A stretch of DNA of 64,000 nucleotides from contig NZ_JQKD01000020.1 in NCBI RefSeq assembly GCF_000745855.1, positions 1-64,000 of the forward strand, given 5' to 3'. Positions 12,557-19,544 of the stretch are shown here, piece after piece (within the stretch, counting starts at the first letter, position 1; each line of letters starts with the position of its first letter). The translations under genes were made by a program, and so were the position numbers. The notes under the pieces were generated by a model. The model was not told the origin of the DNA and ran no database searches. It was given only the letters and a program-made list of their open reading frames with translations. The stretch is from Xenophilus azovorans DSM 13620 (GTDB lineage Bacteria > Pseudomonadota > Gammaproteobacteria > Burkholderiales > Burkholderiaceae_C).

Positions 12557-14113
<1,557 letters not shown>

Positions 14114-14206
14114 GGCGGAGGGGGAAGCGTCTTGAGAGGAGCCAGTGATGATAAATCGGCACACGATTTGCTGTCGGCATGCGGCGTGGACACTTTTGTC
14201 ATCGCC

Positions 14207-15322
14207 ATGCTGACGAGAGTGACCGCAGCCAACGATCCGGCTTTTTCCGAGCGAGCACATCCAGGGAGCGTCGGGCTCCCGGGCGAGCTGACAAGCAGCG
14301 AAGCGTCGTCAGACCTTTGTGTCAGAGACCTCGCTTTCCAGTTGCTCGATGCCGAGCGTGCGCGAGTGGCTCGCGGCGAAATCGCCCGGGGCAGTTGGCA
14401 GGTGATGGACAACCGGCTGAGAGCGCACATCCTGCCTTTGCTGGGCGATCTGCCGGCGCACCGCGTCGACGCCGCGGCGGGGCAGCGCCTGATCGACCGG
14501 CTGGGTGATCAGGGCCTGTCGAGCACGACCCTCTCGCAATACGTGGTGCTGCTGCGCAAGGTTCTCATGCACGGCGTGCTCACCGGCGTGTTGCACGAGT
14601 TGCCGCGCTTGCCCAAGGTCAAGGTCCGCAGCCGGCCGCGCGGCAGCTTCAGCGTAGCGGAATATCGGCAGCTCGCTTCCGCGGCGCGGGCGTTGCGCGG
14701 ACAAGCGCATCCGATACTGGGCACTCTGGACGCCGGCGACAGGTTCTGGATCGCCCGCGACCTGTTGTACATGCCGGACGAGATGTCGTGGCTGATCCGC
14801 TGGATGGTCAACACCTTCGTGCGGCCCAGCGACGTCAAGCTCGTCCGACACAAGCATGTCGACGTCGTGCGCGGGCGTCAGCTTTACCTGCGCCTGCGGC
14901 TGCCGGAAACGAAGCGGCACGGCCAGCCCGTGGTGAGCCTGCGGCCGGCCGTGCACGTCTATGAGGCGTTGCTCCGGCAGCGGCGCAGCGAAGGCCTGGC
15001 TGCGCCCGATGACTACCTGTTCCTGCCGCGCGTCAAGGACCGCAATCAGGCGCTGGCGGTGCTGAACTTCTTTTTCAAATGGGTGCCGCAGCAAACCGGT
15101 CTGGAGACGGGGCCGCTGGGGCAGACGCGCACCCTCTACTGCCTGCGCCACACCGCCATCACGCTGCGCCTGCTGTACGGCCAGGGCATCGACATGCTCA
15201 CCCTGGCGCGCAACGCGCGCACCAGCGTCAACATGATCGAGCGCTTCTACGCCTCGACCCTGAGCGGTGAGATGAACGTGGATCTGCTGCAAAGCCGGCG
15301 CGGGAGGAAGAGTGGTCCTTGA
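14207..15322 (+). CDS. Orphan tyrosine recombinase (integrase family)
   Basis: The protein has an SAM-like N-terminal core-binding domain (about 50-145) and a C-terminal catalytic domain. Candidate residues are Arg in 'FVRPSDVKLV', Lys in 'ETKRHGQPVV', Arg in 'YCLRHTAITLRL' and the nucleophile Tyr in 'TSVNMIERFYAS'. The YxLRHT and TSxxMIExxY forms fit a phage-type subfamily. No strong ribosome site marks the start: ATG 14207 gives 371 residues, GTG 14186 or TTG 14132 would be longer. It stands alone between ilvA and a porin, with no attachment site, excisionase or phage genes visible, so it may be a remnant of a lost element or a domesticated recombinase. Confidence 0.8.
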   Translation: MLTRVTAANDPAFSERAHPGSVGLPGELTSSEASSDLCVRDLAFQLLDAERARVARGEIARGSWQVMDNRLRAHILPLLGDLPAHRVDAAAGQRLIDRLGDQGLSSTTLSQYVVLLRKVLMHGVLTGVLHELPRLPKVKVRSRPRGSFSVAEYRQLASAARALRGQAHPILGTLDAGDRFWIARDLLYMPDEMSWLIRWMVNTFVRPSDVKLVRHKHVDVVRGRQLYLRLRLPETKRHGQPVVSLRPAVHVYEALLRQRRSEGLAAPDDYLFLPRVKDRNQALAVLNFFFKWVPQQTGLETGPLGQTRTLYCLRHTAITLRLLYGQGIDMLTLARNARTSVNMIERFYASTLSGEMNVDLLQSRRGRKSGP

Positions 15323-15393: not shown

Positions 15394-16701
15394 TCAGAAA
15401 GCGTGGCGGATGCCCAGGTCGTAGCCGATGGAGGTCTTCGGGCGATAGTCGCCGCTGATCCAGTTGCCGCGCGCGATGCCGCCCACGGAATAGTCAGCCC
15501 CATTCTTGTTCTTGATGTAGGCCACGGTGCCGTACAGAGCCGTGCGCTTGGACAGGTTGTGCACGTAGCCCACGGCGATCTGATCAGCCTTGGGGTTGCC
15601 CTGGTTGCCGAAGGCCTGTGCCCAGTAGTCTTTCAGGCTCGGCAGCGGCGCCAGACCGTAGTAATGCACCGAAGGCTTGAGCGTCACGCGGCCGTAGGAC
15701 GCCTTGATGACGCCAGCGCCCACCGGTGCGGTCAGGCCGATGTGATAGCCGTTCAGACGGCCGTTGGTGACAGCCAGCGATTCGAACGGCGACACGTTCG
15801 TGTACTCGCCGTCGGATTTGACGCGGGCGTATTCGCCGACCAGCTTGAGCACGCCGAAGTCGTAGGATGCGCCGACGTTGAAGGTCTTTACGGTGCGGTC
15901 GAAACCATCGTAGTAGTCGGACTCGACGTTCTGTTCACCATAGGCCACGGCCACATCCAGCGGGCCGTTGGCGTAGCCGAAGCGGCCTCCCCAATAGCGG
16001 CCCGAGCGCGTGTCGCCGTTGGCGGGCGTGAACGTGCCGTCGCTGTACTTGGCCTTCTCGTGGAAGGCATACATCACGTTGCCGTAGAAGCCGCCCAAGT
16101 TCCGGGGCAGGAAGTAGCCGACCGAGTTGGAAGCGCGGACGTTGTCGGACTCAAAAGCCCAATCGGAACCGACCAAGTTGCTTGCCGTCAGTGGAGCGGC
16201 GCCGGCGGCCTTCTGGATGAGGTTGGTGCCCACGCCCACGGTGCCGAACGGATCGAAAACGGAGTTGTTGGAGAACGTCGGCTTGTAGTCGCGGCCCAGG
16301 CGGATTTCACCGAAGGCGCCCGACAGGCTGACGGTGGCGCGGCGGTTGAAGTTCAGTGCGTACGACGCGTCATCGTTGCGGATCGACGATTCCAGCCAGA
16401 AGCTGGCCGCCAGACCCCCACCCAGGTCTTCCACGCCACGAAAGCCGAGACGGGCGGACGATTCGTTGCCGACGGTCATGCCGGTCCAGCTCTTCTTGGC
16501 GGAATCCGCCTGGAAGATGTAGGCAAGGGGATCGGTCGCCAGGACGAAGGGGTCGGTGACCAGTTGGCTCTTGTTCGAGTAGCTGCTGATGCCGGCGTCC
16601 ACCACGCCGAACAGCGTCACCGACGATTGCGCCGAGGCAACACCGGCAGCAGCCAGGGCAGCCAGAGCAGCTAGACCGGCCGTTGTGATCCACGGCGCCA
16701 A
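15394..16701 (-). CDS. Gram-negative porin with a displaced or lost start
   Basis: This is a 16-stranded general porin of the betaproteobacterial type ('AQSSVTLFGVVDAGISS' at the mature N-terminus, 'YRPKTSIGYDLGIRHAF' ending in the C-terminal Phe signal). It is a paralogue of the porin at 18294-19544. The body is intact, but the first codons do not match: where the paralogue reads MKKSLVALAALAAAG, this frame reads ITTAGLAALAALAAAG with no ATG, no charged N-terminus and no ribosome site. The coordinate given uses an in-frame TTG, the only near start after the terminator at 16703-16732. An upstream TTG at 16827 overlaps a promoter and is unlikely. Expression is therefore doubtful. Confidence 0.75.
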   Translation of the reverse strand: MAPWITTAGLAALAALAAAGVASAQSSVTLFGVVDAGISSYSNKSQLVTDPFVLATDPLAYIFQADSAKKSWTGMTVGNESSARLGFRGVEDLGGGLAASFWLESSIRNDDASYALNFNRRATVSLSGAFGEIRLGRDYKPTFSNNSVFDPFGTVGVGTNLIQKAAGAAPLTASNLVGSDWAFESDNVRASNSVGYFLPRNLGGFYGNVMYAFHEKAKYSDGTFTPANGDTRSGRYWGGRFGYANGPLDVAVAYGEQNVESDYYDGFDRTVKTFNVGASYDFGVLKLVGEYARVKSDGEYTNVSPFESLAVTNGRLNGYHIGLTAPVGAGVIKASYGRVTLKPSVHYYGLAPLPSLKDYWAQAFGNQGNPKADQIAVGYVHNLSKRTALYGTVAYIKNKNGADYSVGGIARGNWISGDYRPKTSIGYDLGIRHAF

Positions 16702-16702
16702 G

Positions 16703-16790
16703 AAAAAAGCCCCGAGTCTTGCGACTCGGGGCCAAATCCACCAATTGAGAGGGTGGAGGAGACAACCGGTGCGCACCTGGGTGCGCGTTG
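16703..16790 (-). ncRNA. Candidate small RNA with three hairpins and an intrinsic terminator
   Basis: A promoter (16797-16824) would produce a transcript of about 88 nt. It folds into hairpin 1 (GCGCAC/GTGCGC, loop CCAG), hairpin 2 (TCCACC/GGTGGA, 9-nt loop) and a 10-bp terminator stem (GCCCCGAGTC/GACTCGGGGC, GCAA loop) followed by TTTTTT. The unpaired segment between hairpins 1 and 2 contains TCTCCTCC, complementary to Shine-Dalgarno sequences. No open frame of note lies in it. It does not resemble 6S, tmRNA, SRP RNA or RNase P RNA. It may instead be the attenuated leader of the porin downstream. Confidence 0.5.
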
Positions 16791-16796
16791 AAATAA

Positions 16797-16824
16797 AGTA
16801 TAGCGAGGTCTTGCTGCGATGCAA
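16797..16824 (-). promoter_or_regulatory. Sigma70-type promoter upstream of the candidate small RNA
   Basis: On the minus strand TTGCAT (16819-16824) and TATACT (16797-16802) are separated by 16 bp, close to consensus. The start point would fall near 16790, just before the first hairpin. Confidence 0.65.
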
Positions 16825-16929
16825 CAAGGCAATGGTGATTTACCCCACAACCTTTGCGCGAAGTCGACGGCTTTGTGATTTTTGACCGTCACCCGCGTAT
16901 CTGAACTCGAGAAAGAAAGAGCGATTGCA

Positions 16930-17379
16930 ATGGAGTGCACCGTCAGTTGGACCGGCGCCACAGGAACCCGATCGGCCATGGGTTTCGTCGCTGAAACGGG
17001 AAGTGGGCATGTGCTCACAATGGATGGCGCTCCCGACGCGGCCCGGCCCGAGAACGGAGGGCAGAACCTTGCTCCCCGCCCGATGGAGACCGTGCTCGCC
17101 GGCACGGGCGGCTGCACCGCCTACGACGTGGTCATGATCCTCAAGCGGGGGCGGCACCAGGTCGAGCGCTGCAGCGTCAAGCTCACCAGCGAGCGGGCCG
17201 ACAAGGATCCCAAAGTCTTCACCAAGATCCATATGCACTTCACGGTGGCGGGCAAGGGCATTCCTGCGGCGGCGGTCGAGCGCGCGATCGCCCTGAGCCA
17301 TGACACCTACTGCTCCGCCAGCATCATGCTGGGCAAGACGGCGGAGATCACCACGAGCTTCGACCTGATCGACCTCTGA
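16930..17379 (+). CDS. OsmC/YhfA-family protein
   Basis: OsmC-family proteins are small dimeric enzymes, several of which reduce organic peroxides with two Cys. The 149-residue product has both: Cys in 'GTGGCTAYDVVMILKR' (about residue 61) and Cys in 'HDTYCSASIMLGK' (about residue 125). The 'RPMETVLAGTGGCTA' segment fits the YhfA-like branch, for which function is less certain. I chose ATG 16930 because it begins at 'MECTVSW', the normal N-terminus; a GA-rich stretch upstream could serve as a ribosome site. It is convergent with coq7 and divergent from the small-RNA promoter. Confidence 0.88.
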   Translation: MECTVSWTGATGTRSAMGFVAETGSGHVLTMDGAPDAARPENGGQNLAPRPMETVLAGTGGCTAYDVVMILKRGRHQVERCSVKLTSERADKDPKVFTKIHMHFTVAGKGIPAAAVERAIALSHDTYCSASIMLGKTAEITTSFDLIDL

Positions 17380-17390
17380 GCGCCATGTGC

Positions 17391-18020
17391 TCAGATGCGG
17401 TGCGCCACCGTCGTCATGACACGGGCCGCCAGCCGCATCAGCGCCTTTGCCGGGCCGGGCAGCAGCGCGGCGCCTGATTGCTCGGCCCACTCGGCGTGCC
17501 GGGCCTCGTCCGCCTTCATCTGCTCCACCACGGCACGAGAGGCCGTATCGCCCTCGGGCAGGCGGCTCAGGTGGCCGTCCAGGTGGGCTTCGACCTGCCG
17601 CTCCGTTTCTGCCACGAAGCCCAGGCTCCAGGGATCGCCCAGACGACCGGCCAGCAACCCCAGGCCGAAGGCGCCGGCATACCAGAAGGGATTGAGCCGC
17701 GACCGGTGCGTGCCGAGCGCCTCGATGCGCGCCTGGGTCCAGGCGAGGTGATCCGTCTCTTCCTCGGCGGCTTGAAGCAGCTTTTTTTGCAATACGGGAT
17801 CTCGCGTGGAGGCGGCCTGGGCGGTGTAGAGCGCCTGGGCGCAGATTTCTCCGACATGGTTGACCCGCATCAGCGCGCCGGCTTCGCGCCGCTGCGCATC
17901 GGTCAAGGGGCTGGCCGGTCCACCTTGAGGCATGGCGCGATGGGCATGAGGGGTGGCGAACAGAGTTCGCAATGCGGAATCGGCGGCAGCCAGCAGTGGA
18001 TCGACGGGCGAGAGGGACAT
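17391..18020 (-). CDS. coq7: 2-nonaprenyl-3-methyl-6-methoxy-1,4-benzoquinol hydroxylase (Coq7)
   Basis: Coq7 hydroxylates demethoxyubiquinol, the penultimate step in ubiquinone synthesis, at the inner membrane. The 209-residue protein carries the di-iron ligands of the family: Glu in '[15 protein letters not shown]', the 'EEETDHLAW' ExxH, a further Glu in '[11 protein letters not shown]' and the second ExxH in 'DEARHAEW'. ATG 18020 ([10 protein letters not shown]) begins the family-like N-terminus; longer frames run into the porin promoter region. The 273-bp gap to the right porin holds that gene's promoter and ribosome site and nothing else I recognise. Confidence 0.94.
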
Positions 18021-18293
18021 GCCCGCATTTGAGCGCAATCCAAGCGCCGGTTCTTTGGCGCAGGGAAAACAGGCCGGGCGAAGGGGCTGCGGTGCTGTTG
18101 CAGTGCTACAACGAAACGGACGGGCACTTCCGGATTTCTGCCAATTTGCTTTGCCCTTGTGCGGCGCCTCTGGTGCAATAGCAACAACTTCCCAAAAGGA
18201 GGTTGGCCCGGGGCCCGGTGGGAGCACAAGAAGTGCCAGCACGGTGAACCCTTCGCACCGGCGCCCTATGTCTTAACCTTGGAGAAACTTGCA

Positions 18294-19544
18294 ATGAAAA
18301 AATCCCTCGTTGCTCTGGCTGCCCTGGCTGCTGCCGGTGTTGCCTCGGCGCAATCGTCGGTGACGCTGTTCGGTATCGTGGACGCCTCGATCAGCAGCGT
18401 GTCGAACAAGAGCGAGCTGGTGACCGATCCGTTCACCCTGCTGACCAACCCGTACGCCTACCTGTACCTGCCGGGCTCGCTGAAGACCAGCCGGACCGGC
18501 CTGAACAACAGCGCCTACAACTCCAGCCGCCTGGGCTTCCGTGGCGTCGAAGATCTGGGCGGCGGTCTGTCGGCCAGCTTCTGGCTGGAAGCGCCCATCA
18601 CCAACGATGATGGCGCCACCGGTGTCACCACCTTCGCTCGTCGCTCCACCGTGAGCCTGTCGGGTGGCTTCGGTGAAATCCGCCTGGGCGTCGACTACAA
18701 GCCGACGTTCTGGAACTACACGGTCTTCGATCCGTTCGGCACCGTGGGCGCCGGCACCGCTCTGATCCAGCGTGCCACGCCTGCGCTCGAGAACTCCAAC
18801 GTTCGCGCCAGCAACTCCATCGGCTACTTCCTGCCCAAGAACCTGGGTGGCTTCTATGGCCAGGTGATGTACTCGTTCCACGAGCAACTGAAGGCTGACA
18901 ACAACCTGCAAGACGCTCTGAACCCGAACAGCCGTGGTGGCCGTTACTGGGGTGGCCGCTTCGGCTATGCCAACGGTCCTCTGGACGTTGCTGTGGCCTA
19001 CGGCGAGCAGAACAACGAGTCGGACTGGCTGACGGGCTACGACAACACGGCCAAGAACTTCAACGTCGGTGCCAGCTATGACTTCGGCGTCGTGAAGCTG
19101 TTCGGCCAGTACGCCCGCGTGAAGAACAAGGACGAGTACTCGGCGAACGAGCCCTGGTTCAATCCGTCGACCAAGATGGACGGCTACCTGCTGGGTGTGA
19201 CGGTTCCCGTCGGCGCCGGTCAGATCCGCGCTTCCTACGGCCGCGTGAAGTTCAAGACCGATCGCGATCCGCTCGTGGCGCTGCTGGATCCGTACTACCA
19301 GTACGCCGATCCGAAGGCTGACCAGCTGGCTGTGGGCTATGTCCACAACCTGTCCAAGCGCACGGCTCTGTACGCGACGGTTGCCTACATCAAGAACAAG
19401 AACGGCGCGAACTTCAGCGCTGGTTCGGGCAACATCACCGCTCCGTTCGCGTCGACCTACACCGACACGGTGTTCGGCTCGTCGGGCGCCTATCGTCCGA
19501 AGACCTCCATCGGCTACGACCTGGGCATCCGCCACGCCTTCTGA
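18294..19544 (+). CDS. Gram-negative porin (general diffusion, betaproteobacterial type)
   Basis: The 416-residue outer-membrane porin forms trimeric 16-strand barrels for small hydrophilic solutes. It has a textbook signal peptide (MKKSLVALAALAAAGVASA, cleavage before QSSVTLFG), 'SRLGFRGVEDLGGGLSASFWLE' and FGEIRLG motifs, and ends in '...SIGYDLGIRHAF' with the terminal Phe needed by the BAM complex. A GGAGA ribosome site lies 9 bp before the ATG. A weak promoter with TTGCCC and TGCAAT 17 bp apart may lie near 18154-18182. It differs from the left paralogue mainly in loop regions. Confidence 0.96.
   Translation: MKKSLVALAALAAAGVASAQSSVTLFGIVDASISSVSNKSELVTDPFTLLTNPYAYLYLPGSLKTSRTGLNNSAYNSSRLGFRGVEDLGGGLSASFWLEAPITNDDGATGVTTFARRSTVSLSGGFGEIRLGVDYKPTFWNYTVFDPFGTVGAGTALIQRATPALENSNVRASNSIGYFLPKNLGGFYGQVMYSFHEQLKADNNLQDALNPNSRGGRYWGGRFGYANGPLDVAVAYGEQNNESDWLTGYDNTAKNFNVGASYDFGVVKLFGQYARVKNKDEYSANEPWFNPSTKMDGYLLGVTVPVGAGQIRASYGRVKFKTDRDPLVALLDPYYQYADPKADQLAVGYVHNLSKRTALYATVAYIKNKNGANFSAGSGNITAPFASTYTDTVFGSSGAYRPKTSIGYDLGIRHAF

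Follow-up and report, generated by a model that had tools for sequence, protein, structure and literature searches.

The Betaproteobacteria toxic sRNAs, also called "double-hairpin" RNAs (RF02278), form a family whose founding paper is reportedly that of Kimelman in 2012. The family name derives from toxicity on cloning in E. coli (PMC4603805), and double-hairpin RNAs described in Burkholderia cenocepacia are ncS03, ncS05, ncS27 and ncS62 (PMC4603805, PMC5688073). Overexpression of ncS27 attenuates growth, and its authors liken the double-hairpin RNAs to the NmsRs and report a common upstream motif, their regulation being given as unknown; the triggers have so far been left open despite expression and overexpression work, and the main text of that report never mentions PhaR or phasin (PMC5688073). 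In Bordetella pertussis, the sRNA S17 adjoins coq7, contains a stretch of 27 nt that is conserved across various Betaproteobacteria, is stated by its authors to be homologous to RF02278, and represses the sigma-54 activator BP2158; 70 of the 91 genes upregulated on its deletion have pairing sites near ribosome-binding sites, and the text of the report mentions neither PhaR, phasin nor PHB (PMC11722255). In Neisseria, NmsRA represses TCA-cycle mRNAs via anti-Shine-Dalgarno (anti-SD) segments, and NmsRB resisted cloning in E. coli (PMC5362039). Phasin genes in C. necator are repressed by PhaR until nascent PHB binds PhaR (PMC9049629), and the Sinorhizobium meliloti sRNA MmgR (RF00519) is likewise repressed by PhaR (PMC12542648).

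The 64-kb stretch of DNA analysed here (the window) carries on its minus strand what is, on the evidence of sequence, a genuine sRNA gene of this known kind (Table 1). The best explanation of the locus as a whole, in which we place fairly good confidence, is that of an RF02278-family sRNA that is putatively controlled by PhaR, would be linked to PHB, and lies within a recombinase-flanked porin segment. An earlier note on this DNA had interpreted the site as an sRNA gene that has a promoter and terminator of its own and an anti-SD segment, a reading that is borne out by family match, fold and covariation, and only partly covers the locus: the PhaR-type operator, the paralogue in a phasin 3'UTR and the recombinase/porin module were missed.

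Table 1. Features of the sRNA locus, in window coordinates
Feature	Position	Strand	Basis or remark
ilvA-like gene	12557..14260	-	Directly behind sRNA where porin module absent
YR, diverged tyrosine recombinase	14186..15322	+	AlphaFold2 model, Foldseek, conserved residues
Porin frame (Porin_4) without normal start	15394..16674	-	Pfam PF13609 6.5e-64; downstream of sRNA terminator
Inverted-repeat arm TGCTCTGGCTGCC...	16607..16669	-	63 bp identical to other arm
sRNA gene (RF02278; likely S17 orthologue)	16703..16791	-	~89 nt; Rfam match, fold, covariation
Hairpin 3 = intrinsic terminator, then T run	16708..16733	-	Fold; covariation
Hairpin 2	16737..16757	-	MFE structure
Anti-Shine-Dalgarno segment TCTCCTCC	16755..16762	-	Read in sequence
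Hairpin 1	16771..16786	-	Outside RF02278 model; covariation
-10 box TATACT	16797..16802	-	Read in sequence; close relatives similar
17-bp palindrome TTGCTGCGATGCAACAA / TTGTTGCATCGCAGCAA	16811..16827	.	Overlaps -35 box
-35 box TTGCAT	16819..16824	-	Within 17-bp palindrome
osmC-like gene	16882..17379	+	ORF, likely ATG at 16930; Pfam PF02566; synteny
coq7	17391..18242	-	Pfam PF03232; synteny; borders S17 in Bordetella (PMC11722255)
Active porin, RBS + ATG	18294..19544	+	Lies inverted beyond coq7
Inverted-repeat arm in active porin	18311..18373	+	63 bp identical

RF02278 covers 16702-16764 with 61.8 bits over the full model (1-64), above the curated cut-off of 50 bits (E 5.2e-10 over the whole window), which answers the comparison with Rfam that the earlier note had suggested, and the RNA shows the family traits of an anti-SD segment, two 3' hairpins and a terminator. 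As the note had described, three hairpins form; the fold of the 89-nt RNA has an MFE of -44.1 kcal/mol (z -5.39; 0 of 200 shuffles equally stable), and its last hairpin consists of 11 pairs closed by a GCAA loop, with T's behind it. Across 28 distinct sequences, window included, the paired state is found in 99.0% of pair cells, and the covariation score is reached by 0 of 500 shuffles. Changes on both sides occur in 4 of the 6 pairs of hairpin 1 (97.6% of cells paired) and in 6 of the 10 pairs compared in hairpin 3, while all six pairs of hairpin 2 are constant, making it uninformative by covariation. The anti-SD segment TCTCCTCC was found where it had been claimed, its final three bases doubling as the foot of hairpin 2; it is invariant across 42 aligned sequences, all of them selected by that very core, and the ten bases of TGTCTCCTCC are constant because the relatives were picked by the pattern TGTCTCCTCC. 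Hairpin 1 is missing from the RF02278 model, which leaves the description of the family incomplete at the 5' end for this lineage. The boxes TTGCAT and TATACT are separated by 16 nt on the minus strand, with transcription predicted to start about 6 nt past the -10 box, and this promoter element is kept in relatives. Boxes and spacer are thus present as described, although "near-consensus" was generous wording for 3/6 (-35) and 5/6 (-10) matches to the sigma-70 consensus, which fall under the promoter-scan threshold. The open frame that runs across the RNA in the frame of the porin (from a TTG at 16827) is accounted for by the downstream porin body.

The window RNA resembles the double-hairpin RNAs in its model match over the cut-off, the anti-SD segment, hairpins 2 and 3, and the occurrence of several copies per genome, and ncS27 likewise has an additional 5' part; unlike them, it has a PhaR-type operator over its -35 box and a weaker copy in a phasin 3'UTR. 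With S17 it shares the adjoining coq7, the terminator, RF02278 homology, and an identical -35 box, TTGCAT, in the promoter reported for B. pertussis (PMC11722255). Given its family membership and its coq7 neighbour, the window RNA is taken as likely orthologous to S17, by family and position; RNase E shortens the 190-nt S17L to ~67 nt, while the primary transcript predicted for the window is ~89 nt (PMC11722255). As in NmsRA and NmsRB, three hairpins are present with the anti-SD segment between the first two (PMC5362039), and under permissive search settings the window RNA can be aligned to the NmsRb model (RF02877), 5' hairpin included. By contrast with the Neisseria RNAs, the score is under the cut-off (40.2 bits against 52), the copies are not in tandem, and a second CUCC motif in loop 2 is absent. 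The similarity to MmgR lies in an sRNA placed under a PhaR site and in RNA regulation tied to PHB (PMC12542648, PMC9049629), but by covariance model the window RNA is not a member of that family (RF00519, 15.3 bits, E 0.9, cut-off 41). The likeness to alphaproteobacterial CCUCCUCC-loop RNAs proposed in the earlier note calls for correction, the top Rfam match being betaproteobacterial.

Matches to RF02278 at E 0.001 were found in 47 of 60 genomes (own included), 37 of them above the cut-off. At 17 loci from other genera, with about 1.5 kb covered per side, the sRNA adjoins osmC in 15, coq7 in 11 and the ilvA-like gene (ilvA below) in 13. Within the genus, ilvA lies directly after the sRNA in 5 of 14 loci, so that the RNA is conserved without the porin, a comparison that the earlier note had put forward, and three distinct porin-less loci that were aligned retain all three hairpins. 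From the recurrence of ilvA right behind the sRNA, within and outside the genus, the sRNA with its synteny probably predates the porin module.

Invertible switches of surface proteins that involve tyrosine recombinases are known from fim and from Bacteroides invertons. The window is similar in that a recombinase lies beside inverted repeats at the 5' ends of surface-protein genes, and different in that the repeat consists of porin signal-peptide codons and that the segment bears coq7, osmC and the sRNA. A 2023 survey of programmed inversions, said to be by Milman and colleagues, may list this locus; listings and abstract openings in the literature on these bacteria report no porin switch. The recombinase, YR, has an AlphaFold2 model of mean pLDDT 76 (residues 334-359 of low confidence; an earlier fold from 9 sequences was poor at 47.7), for which Foldseek returns a Cre variant (2.0e-07), lambda Int (2.5e-07) and Tn1549 Int (6.5e-07) at TM ~0.5. 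R213, K243, R321, H322 and Y355 are invariant in 28 sequences, and position 318 is Y where many members have H; we take these to form the catalytic pattern R...K...(H)xxR-H...Y. By sequence, YR reaches Pfam PF00589 below the cut-off only, has no match in NCBIfam, and finds an integrase fragment among PDB sequences at 4.6e-05. Together, the catalytic motif and the integrase fold predicted by the model mark YR as a putative tyrosine recombinase, with homologues in 20 of 399 family genomes and 8 of 141 genera.

The two porin frames differ at their starts. The copy beside YR lacks the MKKSLV start and has an in-frame TTG 10 codons upstream of the repeat. The exact 63-bp stretch shared by the two copies starts at TGCTCTGG, in signal-peptide codons, and the first 20 bases of the arm in the start-less copy occur exactly at only two sites in the genome. 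Among 25 genomes (related, two of them records of one strain, and omitting L087 as outgroup and L073 and L083 for indels), the two copies agree fully over this stretch in 17, whereas such identity is seen in 37 of 600 cross-genome pairs; 0 of 20000 permutations reach the within-genome level, and a tree of porin bodies intermixes the two positions, with 10 label changes, 6 of them forced. The start-less frames are open to the end in 32 of 33 cases (no length filter), with pN/pS of 0.08-0.23 in 8 chosen pairs, against 0.05-0.54 for active copies. An in-frame ATG, GTG or TTG lies upstream in 20 of 32 porin copies (ATG in 7) and is lacking in 12, so that some copies may be translated in place.

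In the genome collection, the order recombinase, porin copy, sRNA, osmC, coq7 is found at 31 of 41 loci, a few of them cut in the far porin. The porin module is present at 9 of 14 same-genus loci, and in a fifteenth genome it sits where the contig ends (L115). Recombination by YR between the two inverted porin ends that flank the sRNA segment would constitute a porin switch, and such a recombination-driven switch is likely, from these genomic arrangements, in Variovorax, Pseudacidovorax, Xenophilus and Ramlibacter. The strength of this reading is limited by orientation: the sRNA-osmC-coq7 segment points the same way in 31 of the 32 collection loci that have both sRNA and porin copy, and this near-constancy in assemblies means that switching is rare or biased, or that gene conversion keeps the repeats alike. 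The latter view, in which ordinary gene conversion between porin paralogues keeps the shared repeat identical and the recombinase does something else, is also favoured by the consideration that the adjoining 60-100 bp would not be kept uniform by a site-specific crossover on its own, and by the premature stop that breaks one porin copy beside the recombinase (L078, a Xenophilus record). It is nevertheless somewhat unlikely, since the segment is flipped in one Ramlibacter MAG contig (L087) that shares only a short core, and since diverged recombinases (40-56%) adjoin porins at 10 of 13 loci, with the frame starting at GCTCTGGC in 5; tblastn detected no porin for the recombinases of L108, L110 and L116. 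The open frames and their low pN/pS are, moreover, expected if the start-less copies are sometimes expressed. At another locus, L094, tblastn found no porin, and no other module neighbours are present.

The nearest functional tie between sRNA and porin is the sRNA terminator, which leaves ~33 bp between its end and the porin repeat and would protect the porin copy behind it from read-through. The porin as an sRNA target was rejected: pairing of the anti-SD segment with the RBS of the active porin gives -9.7 kcal/mol, weaker than the median of -11.0 for 3000 random 36-nt windows drawn from the 64-kb window, and a value of -27.9, obtained with the structured RNA in full length, carries no meaning.

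The 17-bp palindrome that overlaps the -35 box matches exactly the Ralstonia eutropha PhaR palindrome YTKNTGCRNYGCANMAR (PMC12849132) and the Herbaspirillum seropedicae PhbF motif TG[N]TGC[N]3GCAA, which PhbF shields from DNase I (PMC3206438). It is common to close relatives, and the genome encodes a PhaR (PF07879, 2.3e-29), with no exact box near the phaR gene itself. In this genome the strict form TTGYTGCRNYGCARCAA is exact only at the sRNA and at C22:27426-27442. With one mismatch it occurs at six more sites, including one that lies 60 bp away from the exact C22 box. A one-mismatch PhaR-type box was also seen near the start of what is presumably a PEP-carboxylase-like (ppc-like) gene of this genome (L121). 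Among 49 distinct sRNA loci, from which a chance low-score match (L007) had been removed beforehand, the H. seropedicae motif is exact upstream of 43, against 22 of 1959 random windows from the same loci, and the strict palindrome occurs at no more than one mismatch in 39, against 18 of 1959, counts that are not independent, the loci being related. Both C22 boxes belong to a phasin promoter, and the 3'UTR of that phasin gene (PF09361, 2.8e-27) holds the second RF02278 copy of this genome (36.1 bits, under the family cut-off). This layout, a phasin gene with two boxes (<=1 mismatch) and the RNA element behind it, recurs at 14 of 14 second copies in 15 same-genus genomes, the remaining genome (G003) having no second RF02278 copy. 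Elsewhere in the family, a phasin is present at three of seven loci fetched (L139, L140, L144), with weaker second boxes, and no phasin is found at the other four. At L129, L131 and L134, an extra TTGTCTCCTC element with a terminator was seen right after the stop codon of another ORF, near a phasin gene. Exact fit, enrichment at orthologues and association with phasin place the sRNA promoter among the candidate operators of a PhaR regulon.

The same association was followed in 37 Variovorax genomes, of which 35 have a detectable RF02278 RNA. The exact palindrome occurs in 1-3 copies per genome (65 in total), and a reversed control pattern is absent from 36 of the 37. An exact box lies just upstream of the best sRNA match in 30 of these genomes and is missing there in 7. 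The other exact boxes were read in 34 of 35 cases, one at a contig edge (G453) being left out, and a phasin starts 69-124 bp downstream of 17 of the 34: three precede a PF09361-type phasin, each with an TTGTCTCC element and terminator behind it, and 14 precede a second phasin type (NF045536 PhaP6, 6.5e-43). Another three (L213, L225, L226) precede a gene that we take to be ppc-like, and at 14 neither a phasin nor a ppc-like gene adjoins. Beyond the family, the box fades. The best-scoring order-wide loci (20 readable, 18 of them outside the family, the core being unreadable in 6 of the 26 new loci, which were excluded) have no exact box and three with one mismatch, against 0 exact and 31 one-mismatch of 2080 control windows; a looser motif is exact at 2 of 13 loci outside the family and 3 of 3 inside, against 12 of 1440 controls. 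The box as a trait of all RF02278 was therefore rejected, and putative PhaR control is better read as a trait of one branch. That the palindrome instead serves some regulator different from PhaR would agree with the lack of an exact box at the phaR locus and with the 14 Variovorax boxes beside neither phasin nor ppc; we consider this improbable, given that two published motifs of PhaR orthologues are fitted exactly and that the box associates with phasins of two families, each recognised by a different model.

Two further alternatives concern the RNA itself. If it did not act in trans as an sRNA but served the downstream porin in cis, as a regulator or as an attenuator in its 5' leader, the element would suit its position on the same strand ~33 bp upstream of the porin repeat, the open frame that continues from RNA into porin, and the 20 of 32 porin frames with an in-frame upstream start (7 of them ATG); this is very improbable in view of the strong, covarying terminator, the 12 of 32 porin copies that lack any such start, and the replacement of the porin by ilvA behind the sRNA (5/14 same-genus, 13/17 other-genus loci). 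Hardly credible is a toxin-like or selfish RNA, as suggested by a family named after toxicity when cloned in E. coli (PMC4603805) and by the unclonable NmsRB (PMC5362039), against which stand the conserved synteny with osmC and coq7 and the only modest effect of S17 on growth at stationary-phase entry (PMC11722255).

The favoured reading, a PhaR-controlled sRNA linked to PHB, may be put as follows. The sRNA would be transcribed from its own promoter, and the PhaR-type repressor site, covering the -35 box, should keep the gene off without PHB. Once PhaR is bound by newly formed PHB granules, sRNA and phasins would be made together, and the second copy would be freed from the phasin mRNA 3'UTR under the same control. 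The CU-rich segment would then, as described for relatives, pair with Shine-Dalgarno regions and block translation of its targets, probably genes of carbon uptake and catabolism. On this sequence-based view we infer that the RNA is a PHB-sensing anti-SD RNA, analogous to MmgR. In its boldest form, the proposal is that RF02278 sRNAs of Comamonadaceae act as a PHB-storage checkpoint, comprising a gene with a PhaR operator and a copy in a phasin 3'UTR, in which an anti-SD RNA would flood the cell as carbon storage begins, and that the stand-alone gene lies within a recombinase-driven porin switch with signal-peptide codons as its crossover site; we rate this about as probable as its contrary. For the sRNA, the PhaR-type operator and the phasin-3'UTR copy appear new, and the porin module, a separate finding, likewise appears new within the literature searched. 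PhaR control of an sRNA in these bacteria was not found among the top matches of the literature search or in excerpts of PMC12849132, PMC11332829 and PMC12542648. Operator and phasin-mRNA copy would make the RNA a reporter of carbon storage in one bacterial family and, if true, a betaproteobacterial counterpart of MmgR, with an RNA that scores below the cut-off of the MmgR covariance model in the same role. The porin module would extend recombinase-controlled surface switches to porins, with signal-peptide codons as the recombination site.

Several module loci are incomplete or rearranged in the assemblies. The contig ends soon after YR at six of the 41 collection loci, and at L086 a porin fragment lies on the opposite strand ahead of the contig end. 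Contigs of L061, L067, L070, L074, L079 and L084 stop inside one porin, which may reflect mixed arrangements or mere porin repeats. Variovorax beijingensis 502 (L095) lacks the porin copy, and its recombinase gene has lost its end; genome G225 (L103, L104) has four recombinase genes and several start-less porin frames within ~35 kb, resembling a cassette array.
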